From Roseobacter ponti (lineage in GTDB: Bacteria > Pseudomonadota > Alphaproteobacteria > Rhodobacterales > Rhodobacteraceae): 64,000 nucleotides of DNA. Below are positions 61,697-64,000 of this stretch, one piece after another (the first letter of the stretch is position 1; each line of letters starts with the position of its first letter). Both the position numbers and the translations under genes were made by a program. The notes below the pieces were generated by a model. That model did no database searches, had not been told where the DNA came from, and saw only the letters and a program-made list of their open reading frames with translations. The stretch lies in NCBI RefSeq assembly GCF_012932215.1, contig NZ_CP048788.1, positions 2,356,001 through 2,420,000 on the forward strand, in the 5' to 3' direction.

Positions 61697-62419
61697 TCAG
61701 GGCCGTCTGTGGAATGCATCGAGAACTGCGTCGAGATGTTCGGCCGGGAAAGCGAATGTTCCGTCCAGATCTTCGGTCCGGACGACTGCTACCGCAAGAT
61801 TATCAGCTAACCCGCCCGCCCGGAATACAACCCTTCCGTCCGCGTCAGCTGCGTCGCGCACATTTCGCAGCTTATCAATAACGTCCGGTTGACCGGTATT
61901 GACCGGCGCAACTCCGGGTCGGATTATGACCGATGCAACAGCAAAACCGGCACAAGCATCAAATCCTGAATTCAGGCAAAGGCGGTCAGTCCGACGAAGA
62001 TCATCGACAGGTACCCCTTCGGTCGAACTGCCTTTTGGAGATTTCGGCAGGCCAGCTATGACTTCCACCTGATCCGCGGCGGCTGTAAAAGCGTTCAGCA
62101 TATTCATTAATTCTGCCCCATCTTTACGGGACAGCGGCCGGCCGACAATGTCCTGGCCATTGTTGGCCCAGCCGCCCTTTGCAGAGTGAATGCTGTTGAT
62201 TCTCCGTTCTTCGGCATCAAGCACCAGATTTCCGGCCTTGGTTTCAAATGATAAAGTCCGCCTCAGAATTGTCTCGCTGACCTCATTGCAAAGCGCGTCC
62301 TCCAGAGTGACGCCCGCAGTCGCGCGGATAACACGGGTCTGCCTAATGTGCGACAGATCGATACTCCCAAGAGCGGACAACACAGAATCGAGGCGGGCCG
62401 CTTCGCCGTCATTCTTCAT
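61697..62419 (-). CDS. Hypothetical 240-residue protein of the GTPase/Roadblock cluster
   Basis: I do not recognise this protein. It is soluble, with no signal peptide or membrane helix. It has an N-terminal helical part (ARLDSVLSALGSIDLSH), a middle region with alternating strands (FETKAGNLVLDAEERRI; DQVEVIAGLPKSPKG) and a C-terminal part that again looks strand-rich. Its ATG overlaps the stop of the Roadblock-like gene by 4 nt (ATGA), so the two are translated together. A scaffold or second regulator for the neighbouring GTPase is the natural guess. Confidence 0.8.
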   Translation of the reverse strand: MKNDGEAARLDSVLSALGSIDLSHIRQTRVIRATAGVTLEDALCNEVSETILRRTLSFETKAGNLVLDAEERRINSIHSAKGGWANNGQDIVGRPLSRKDGAELMNMLNAFTAAADQVEVIAGLPKSPKGSSTEGVPVDDLRRTDRLCLNSGFDACAGFAVASVIIRPGVAPVNTGQPDVIDKLRNVRDAADADGRVVFRAGGLADNLAVAVVRTEDLDGTFAFPAEHLDAVLDAFHRRP

Positions 62420-62802
62420 GTGTCAGATCCAACGGTGCTGAGAAGACTGCAGGACGCCGAGAGAATTTCTCCGACGGGTGTTATTCCGAGCCATTGCAGG
62501 CAAACAGCTTCCTCCGGACTTTCCGGCGATGTTACGTACAAACGATTGTAGCCCTGCCCCGGGACAACTGCGTAAGAAATTCCTGCACTCTGAGGTGCGC
62601 CAAAAGCGCTTTTTACTGCTTCTGAAGTAATGGACAACAGCGCGCTGCAAGCCTCAGCGCACAGATCGTCCAACTGCTCCTGCGTTACGCCATTTCGGGC
62701 ACTTGATGCCAGAACCATCCGTGTTGAAAGATCAGCAAATGCGGCGATCTCACAACTTTCAAAACGCGTACGCAATTCTGATAGGCGTTCATGGATTGTC
62801 AT
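62416..62802 (-). CDS. Roadblock/LC7-like small protein
   Basis: The 128-residue product fits the Roadblock/LC7 order: helix (TIHERLSELRTRFESC), strand pair (EIAAFADLSTRMVLASSA), long helix (TQEQLDDLCAEACSALLSI), then strands (GYNRLYVTS; EAVCLQWLG). This is fold-level recognition from the pattern, not a strong family match. Roadblock proteins are known partners of small GTPases (for example MglB with MglA). I prefer the ATG at 62802 to the GTG at 62811; neither has a strong ribosome site. It lies 103 nt after the dynamin-like GTPase gene. Confidence 0.7.
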   Translation of the reverse strand: MTIHERLSELRTRFESCEIAAFADLSTRMVLASSARNGVTQEQLDDLCAEACSALLSITSEAVKSAFGAPQSAGISYAVVPGQGYNRLYVTSPESPEEAVCLQWLGITPVGEILSASCSLLSTVGSDT

Positions 62803-62829
62803 TTGTATCACCAGAAGCTGAACCTGTCG

Positions 62830-62846
62830 GGTAGCTTGTCGCTACC
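62830..62846 (-). promoter_or_regulatory. Small stem-loop and T8 tract between the GTPase and Roadblock-like genes
   Basis: GGTAGC (62830-62835) pairs with GCTACC (62841-62846) around a 5-nt loop, 28 nt before the Roadblock-like start. About 25 bp further lies an uninterrupted run of eight T (plus strand), rare in this GC-rich sequence. In the gene direction the run reads as A8 and precedes the hairpin, so this is not a canonical terminator; it may influence the relative output of the two genes. Confidence 0.4.
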
Positions 62847-62905
62847 GATGTCAGATACTAGACGCACAGATTTTTTTTCTGGTTAACACGGGTGAAAACA
62901 TCGGG

Positions 62906-63835
62906 TCAGGAGAATTTAGGCATAAAATCCGGATGATCATCGGCAGCGTCCCTGACCGTATCATCAACCCGATCCGCAGGATTCATCGTCGGCCGTCGTG
63001 GAGAGATATGGCCGGAAGAAAGCTGAGAGGGTGTCGGTTTACGCCCGGCCACCGGGACTTCCTCGCAACGGCGGGCTTCAGGCATCGACAGCCCTGCATC
63101 ACCAGATTCAAGATCACGACGCAGCTCCGCAACGATATCCAGAAAAGCATTTACGAAGTCTTCGGCGCCGCTTTCGGCCCATTTATCAGCACATTCTCCC
63201 GCATCACGCGCTTCTAGCAGTGAGATCATCTGACGTTGTGCAAACAAATCTTCCGTTTCTGAGAGTACGCGCCTGAACACACGCGATTTGTCACGCGATG
63301 AAGCAAGCATATCGGCGCGGGTCAGCAGAAGTATGGATTTTGACCGGACCTGTTCCGGCACGGATTCCCAGACGGCAGCTTCACTTTGTCGCCAGGCCTG
63401 CGTTGACGCGCTGCACCAGACAACACCGTCCGCAAGCGGCAGAACTCTTTCCCAAACCTCCGAGGACATGTTCGGATCGGAAATACCTGGCATGTCGATG
63501 ATATCTACAAGGCGGAGGATATCTTCTTCGGCAAACACACGGATGTAGGCCGTCTTTTCAGGATCTACAGGTCCGGTTCCGGTCATAGCGTACGGGGTTT
63601 CTTTACCATCTGTGTCGACGACCATGGCCTGTCCGGTGCCGAAACTGACCCACACCGGCGGCATCTGTGTCGCGACAATCTGAACGTGAAGCGGTTCTGA
63701 ACCGATCATCAGATTTGCCAGAGTGCTTTTACCCGCACTGAACTCACCCATGAGAGCGATCCGCGGGCGCCTCCCGTTACTCCTGTCGACGTTCTGCAGG
63801 AAAGCAGGGGGCATTTCGGCTTTCATTTCATTCAT
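62906..63835 (-). CDS. Dynamin-type mini-GTPase
   Basis: A 309-residue P-loop GTPase. Motifs in order: G1 GEFSAGKST (30-38), a G2 threonine in VATQMPP (about 57), G3 DMPG (114-117) and G4 TRAD (172-175). GEFSAGKST and the bulky switch region are typical of bacterial dynamin-family GTPases. Those proteins usually have 500 or more residues with a helical stalk and a membrane-binding tip; here the G domain ends near residue 240, followed by about 70 hydrophilic residues (SGHISPRRPTMNPADR). Its ATG overlaps the stop of an upstream gene cut by the window edge. Confidence 0.88.
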   Translation of the reverse strand: MNEMKAEMPPAFLQNVDRSNGRRPRIALMGEFSAGKSTLANLMIGSEPLHVQIVATQMPPVWVSFGTGQAMVVDTDGKETPYAMTGTGPVDPEKTAYIRVFAEEDILRLVDIIDMPGISDPNMSSEVWERVLPLADGVVWCSASTQAWRQSEAAVWESVPEQVRSKSILLLTRADMLASSRDKSRVFRRVLSETEDLFAQRQMISLLEARDAGECADKWAESGAEDFVNAFLDIVAELRRDLESGDAGLSMPEARRCEEVPVAGRKPTPSQLSSGHISPRRPTMNPADRVDDTVRDAADDHPDFMPKFS

Positions 63836-64000
63836 ACGCGGAATACTTTCTCAGAAGCTGCAGAGCTGCGGAAAGATCCCGTTTACCTGCAGTTGCTTCC
63901 TGTTTCTCAACAAATGCGGCGATCTCCGCTTCACCGCCTTCCCGGAGGCGGTCAAGTGTGTCGAATACAGATTCCTGTTCGGACAGAAACGCCTCGAAAT
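63828..64000 (-). CDS. C-terminal end of an unidentified protein upstream of the mini-GTPase (partial)
   Basis: The last 56 codons of an open frame enter from the right edge and stop at 63828, overlapping the GTPase ATG by 8 nt. The visible part (FEAFLSEQESVFDTLDRLRE, then AEIAAFVEKQEATAGKRDLS, ending LLRKYSAYE) is charged and strongly helical, likely coiled coil. It could be the helical stalk or a second GTPase that works with the mini-GTPase. Identity cannot be determined from this fragment. Confidence 0.7.
   Translation of the reverse strand, partial: FEAFLSEQESVFDTLDRLREGGEAEIAAFVEKQEATAGKRDLSAALQLLRKYSAYE

Follow-up and report, generated by a model that had tools for sequence, protein, structure and literature searches.

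A conserved operon of dynamin-type GTPases, a Roadblock-fold protein and phospho-signalling genes in the Rhodobacter/Roseobacter group

Results

Gene content of the operon

The window analysed here, a stretch of 64,000 nucleotides from the genome of Roseobacter ponti (NZ_CP048788.1; G000:C1:2356001-2420000), ends within an operon that encodes dynamin-type GTPases. The window itself contains the genes for a stalkless dynamin-type GTPase that we designate GTP, a Roadblock/LC7-fold protein designated RB, and a partner designated CTD, as well as the 3' end of the gene for a larger dynamin designated DYN, most of which lies beyond the window (G000:C1:2419828-2421924). Extension of the window (locus L004) revealed, further upstream of DYN, genes for a P-loop protein of 400 amino acids designated NTP, a PP2C phosphatase (Pfam PP2C_2, 7.3e-11), an FHA protein (FHA, 1.9e-6), and a Ser/Thr kinase (Pkinase, 5e-29); the starts of these upstream genes are those of the longest open reading frames (ORFs). 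This eight-gene set is a real, conserved system that is carried by bacteria of the Rhodobacter/Roseobacter group and for which we found no name. Each GTPase is annotated in the records as a "dynamin family protein", and RB and CTD are each listed as a "hypothetical protein".

A preliminary description of the window had proposed a cluster of four genes encoding a dynamin-type GTPase, a Roadblock-like protein, a partner of unassigned family, and a helical protein upstream. These genes are real, and the match of GTP to Dynamin_N bears out its assignment from the G1 and G3 motifs; however, the half of the operon that encodes the kinase, FHA protein, phosphatase, and degenerate GTPase, together with a second copy of the set, lies beyond the window. 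The upstream gene does overlap that of GTP by 8 nucleotides (63828-63835), but its product is not merely helical, being a complete dynamin. The RB and CTD genes share 4 nucleotides (ATGA, read from the DNA), as had been described.

Table 1. Genes of the operon that lie within the window
Feature	Position	Strand	Evidence and remarks
GTP, stalkless dynamin-type GTPase, 309 amino acids	62906-63835	-	Pfam Dynamin_N 2.1e-8; G1 GEFSAGKST, G3 DMPG, G4 TRAD
RB, Roadblock/LC7-fold protein, 128 amino acids from ATG	62416-62802	-	Alternative GTG start at 62811 gives 131 amino acids
CTD, partner of 240 amino acids	61697-62419	-	Residues 150-240 weakly longin/Roadblock-like; fold of N-terminal half unassigned
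DYN, 3' end	63828-64000	-	Dynamin-like, 698 amino acids; G1, DTPG, NRID, WWKRWW; Dynamin_N 8.6e-13

Conservation and duplication

We scored 122 loci with profiles. Of these, 42 are wide loci taken out of whole genomes; the other 80 are named loci on genome contigs and represent the best of 502 contig stretches that encode a relative. All loci were picked via the GTPase, so the counts show what accompanies GTP but give no measure of how frequently the set is absent. When judged by the last 200 residues of GTP, 107 loci are distinct. The conserved gene order expected from the preliminary description was found: the core DYN-GTP-RB-CTD occurs in order in at least 101 of the 107 distinct loci and all eight genes do so in at least 73, some contigs stopping within the operon. 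The six exceptions to the core are L070, L072, L074, L075, and two loci that are cut by contig ends (L040/L093 and L100). In L074 (5614-11448), the core is rearranged such that RB-CTD is followed by an ABC-type ATPase (Pfam match) and then by DYN-GTP. L071 and L073 contain an additional dynamin pair after the core, and a Ruegeria plasmid carries the order DYN-GTP-RB-CTD-DYN2-GTP2-kinase-FHA-PP2C, with members matched by profiles. These arrangements indicate that the gene order is not merely inherited.

Several variant loci contain further ORFs. A second dynamin pair lies upstream of the operon in L070:1-3837 and is followed by an ORF of 118 amino acids that appears Roadblock-like by eye, without a Pfam match. 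ORFs of 131-138 amino acids directly precede DYN in two variant operons; the one at L068:7206-7601 has no Pfam family and the one at L163:9543-9956 matches none of the eight profiles.

The R. ponti genome holds a second copy of the operon (locus L005), found by DNA search, with the same eight genes in identical order. Local BLASTP identity between the copies is 42% for the GTPases, 31% for the NTPs, and 29% for the RBs; the CTDs are hardly alignable pairwise, yet both join one profile. The two copies occupy separate supported clades in a tree of 106 dynamins, and a second genome of the same genus (G266) has one copy of each operon type. Thus, the divergence of the copies predates both genomes, and both copies have been kept. 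The genes in the window are under purifying selection. In comparison with locus L076, the ratio of nonsynonymous to synonymous substitution rates (dN/dS) across all eight genes ranges from 0.09 to 0.31, with the lowest values in the phosphatase and kinase and the highest in CTD; values for GTP, RB, and CTD are 0.17, 0.24, and 0.31 at identities of 83%, 79%, and 71%, respectively.

The preliminary description had inferred no sugar-metabolism function for the cluster, and the flanks likewise show no tie to the adjacent metabolic genes. The commonest flanking family among the 80 named loci occurs in 29 of them and the second-commonest in 17; the former consists of generic ABC ATPases, which lie on either side of the operon at varying distances. 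A creatininase gene lies directly downstream of the operon in the window.

The GTPases DYN, GTP, and NTP

Both DYN and GTP score above the curated Dynamin_N cut-off. GTP also exceeds the cut-off for MMR_HSR1, and no Ras or Arf family is among its six Pfam matches up to an E-value of 1. Its closest match in the PDB is 5owv_C (4.5e-18), a chain of the Cj-DLP1/2 tetramer (5OWV), while DYN matches 5owv_A and 2j68. The motifs of GTP are retained almost throughout the 122 loci (G1 in 122, G3 in 120, G4 in 121), as are a conserved stretch WC..TQAWRQSE (119) and a C-terminal tail motif PxR[VPI] (115). GTP measures 276-355 amino acids in 105 of the 122 loci, a length that cannot accommodate a trunk in addition to the G domain; it therefore lacks the helical neck and trunk and, as judged from its sequence, is a dynamin-type G-domain protein rather than a full dynamin-like protein (DLP). 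Longer ORFs of 565-631 amino acids in variants L068, L072, and L073 suggest that the stalkless state is derived.

DYN is long enough to accommodate a helical neck and trunk. Its G1, G3, and G4 motifs are present in 119, 120, and 121 of the 122 loci, respectively, and the misses are confined to L085, L118, and L120, which start within DYN at a contig end. A WWxxW motif found in 117 loci may be where DYN touches the membrane, as the paddle of BDLP does. DYN has its own G domain, so the module is not a single dynamin divided among several polypeptides, as the earlier proposal had it; the operon instead encodes a dynamin pair with added regulators.

NTP retains its P-loop in 87 of 113 sequences. 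When 25 standard-operon sequences out of the 113 were aligned, none had the DxPG motif at the corresponding columns, and a DxPG string occurs anywhere in NTP in only 16 of 113, a count that includes L072 and L073. In these two-pair variants, the NTP-related GTPases retain DxPG, and GTP2 of the Ruegeria plasmid also matches the NTP profile (3.2e-84). Thus, NTP is probably a pseudo-GTPase descended from the GTPase of a second dynamin pair.

RB, CTD, and the phospho-signalling genes

The predicted topology of RB (helix, two strands, helix, three strands, helix) matches solved Roadblock structures over most of the domain, the closest being the Roadblock/LC7 domain of Streptomyces avermitilis (3kye). 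Fold prediction thus upholds the Roadblock assignment made in the preliminary description.

The FHA protein contains a KTRLLG-type motif that is conserved in 71 of 100 sequences. OdhI and GarA are FHA-type phospho-switches, and by analogy this motif is a candidate phosphosite; the match of the FHA protein to the NCBIfam OdhI model (2.8e-4) falls far under its cut-off. In L097:12554-20701 (Maritimibacter sp. 55A14), the eight-gene operon has beside it, on the opposite strand, an additional PP2C gene and an additional kinase gene, which enclose two larger ORFs of unassigned family. This group adjoins an EF-G-like protein (EFG_IV, 2e-35) whose P-loop-like stretch is without the usual Lys.

Model for the operon

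The gene content suggests a regulated membrane-remodelling machine. On balance and with some reserve, we favor a reading in which the operon encodes a signal-controlled, Roadblock-regulated bacterial dynamin system; its observed basis is the gene content, the motifs, the predicted fold of RB, and a linkage that is both conserved and rearranged. DYN would be the mechanical dynamin that binds membranes and bends or tethers them, and GTP its stalkless G-domain partner. RB, probably as a dimer or as a heteromer with CTD, would bind the G domain of GTP and set its nucleotide state as a GTPase-activating protein (GAP), a guanine nucleotide exchange factor (GEF), or an adaptor. NTP, having lost G3, may serve as an inactive scaffold, and the kinase, FHA protein, and PP2C phosphatase would constitute a phospho-switch that gates the whole system. 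We infer all protein contacts, the direction of regulation, and the action on membranes in this model. Roadblock and longin proteins often build heteromeric GAPs or GEFs (PMC9481161). A more far-reaching version, which we advance only tentatively, holds that a dynamin-superfamily GTPase is under a dedicated Roadblock regulator (an RB-CTD heteromeric GAP or GEF) gated by Ser/Thr phosphorylation, that the Roadblock-GTPase partnership extends to dynamins, and that of two ancestral dynamin pairs, one became a stalkless switch plus a pseudo-GTPase.

Several observations weigh against this Roadblock-regulated dynamin system. Known Roadblock partners are, to our knowledge, Ras-like GTPases and not dynamin G domains, and only 2 of 79 RB family members match the Pfam Robl_LC7 profile, none significantly (best E-value 0.15). 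CTD was not found in L070, where RB is present, and neither RB nor CTD was found beside DYN-GTP in L072 and L075. The kinase was not found in eight named loci with more than 3 kb upstream (L094, L108, L115, L124, L136, L139, L140, and L141), of which the seven that are in the dynamin tree fall in one clade. Hydrophobic segments of DYN over the cut-off occur in none of the 122 loci, and the case for membrane binding is thus built on homology together with the conserved WWxxW motif. Finally, the conserved order points to co-function and not to binding.

RB and CTD might instead be structural subunits that do not regulate a GTPase, for example adaptors that join the dynamin pair to an FHA/kinase complex. 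Roadblock folds serve as scaffolds in Ragulator, and RB, CTD, and the FHA protein are the three fastest-changing products of the operon (dN/dS 0.24-0.31). Nothing in the data separates such a scaffold from a GAP or GEF; we consider the structural role rather unlikely, albeit a serious contender.

Distribution and alternative roles

Of the 295 genomes sampled from the family, 81 gave a match to GTP at an E-value of 1e-3. In samples of the class and the phylum, for which few candidates were scored per genome, matches were limited to 2 of 385 and 4 of 299 genomes, respectively, all of which belong to the same family. Plasmid matches number 18 records, all from Leisingera, Ruegeria, or Rhodobacter. 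Exclusion of four genomes with a best E-value near 1e-4 left 77 carriers, which are carriers of the GTPase; a few hold variant pairs only (e.g., G004, L075). Carrier lists were matched by hand to the tables for FliF and Photo_RC.

The preliminary description had raised a role in polarity, and the GTPases and RB could place or control the flagellum in the manner of MglA/MglB or FlhF-type systems. Roadblock proteins do take part in MglA/MglB polarity (PMC9481161). In 11 of the 122 loci (L056, L068, L094, L102, L113, L115, L124, L127, L130, L139, and L154), motB and flgE lie downstream on the same strand; motB begins 60-142 nucleotides after CTD in 10 of these and 1.7 kb after it in L130. In the tree, the linked loci are divided between the Tabrizicola group and L068, which lie apart, but a label count gives one change when compared with four other rows only and is compatible with a single origin. 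Moreover, motB was not found in the other 111 loci, and carriers show no excess of flagella: FliF is present in 52 of 77 carriers and in 165 of the 218 remaining genomes (Fisher p 0.18), which leaves 25 carriers without it. GTP is dynamin-type, unlike the Ras-like GTPase that MglB acts on as a Roadblock GAP. We regard a flagellar or polarity module as quite improbable.

Similarly doubtful is the remodelling of photosynthetic (intracytoplasmic) membranes in anoxygenic phototrophs. Photo_RC is slightly commoner among carriers (40 of 77 versus 82 of 218; Fisher p 0.03, uncorrected for relatedness and for two traits), the R. ponti genome included. This excess is small and could reflect shared ancestry, and Photo_RC is absent from 37 of the 77 carriers.

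An intracellular defence or stress response, in which the dynamins would seal or destroy membrane upon a signal from the kinase, is also unlikely. The patchy spread and plasmid copies described above are compatible with such a role; the kinase resembles PADLOC PD-T4-6 kinases (3.9e-42), and DYN weakly and partially matches LeoABC components (7.8e-9, for LeoA, and 7.5e-7). However, the PADLOC kinase models are generic for Ser/Thr kinases. Retention of both anciently diverged operons in two genomes of the genus and the low dN/dS, smallest for the phosphatase and kinase, also speak against defence. No relative was confirmed in viral contigs, and the flanks of both R. ponti copies resemble metabolic or transport genes as judged by eye, no systematic scan of the flanks for defence genes having been made.

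Discussion

The favored dynamin system shares two neighboring dynamin-type GTPases with Cj-DLP1/2 of Campylobacter jejuni, BDLP, LeoABC, and the DynA/B pairs, and is closest in GTP to Cj-DLP1/2. Most bacterial DLPs occur as side-by-side pairs, and the paired dynamins of C. jejuni assemble into a lipid-binding hetero-tetramer able to tether and tubulate liposomes (PMC6104087). In contrast to these pairs, one partner here is stalkless, a third GTPase is degenerate, and genes for RB, CTD, kinase, FHA protein, and PP2C accompany the pair.

Roadblock-GTPase operons are known from the conservons (CvnABCD) of Streptomyces. There, too, a Roadblock protein is encoded together with a GTPase and a kinase, and the fold of RB is closest to a Streptomyces domain; in the present operon, however, Ser/Thr kinase, FHA protein, and PP2C replace the histidine kinase, and a dynamin replaces the small GTPase. 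The genes for PpkA, Fha, and PppA, which constitute the threonine-phosphorylation pathway of the type VI secretion system, resemble the kinase, FHA, and PP2C genes in being grouped. Here, the group is linked to dynamins instead, and no secretion or type VI genes were seen by eye beside L004 or L005, no type VI profile having been run.

Little is understood of what bacterial dynamins do (PMC6104087) and, in our judgement, even less of their on/off switching. If the proposed regulation is true, Roadblock control would not be limited to Ras-like GTPases. In cultivated Rhodobacterales, the operon provides candidates for both a Roadblock regulator and a pseudo-GTPase alongside a kinase, an FHA protein, and a phosphatase, and so makes the switching of dynamins directly testable.
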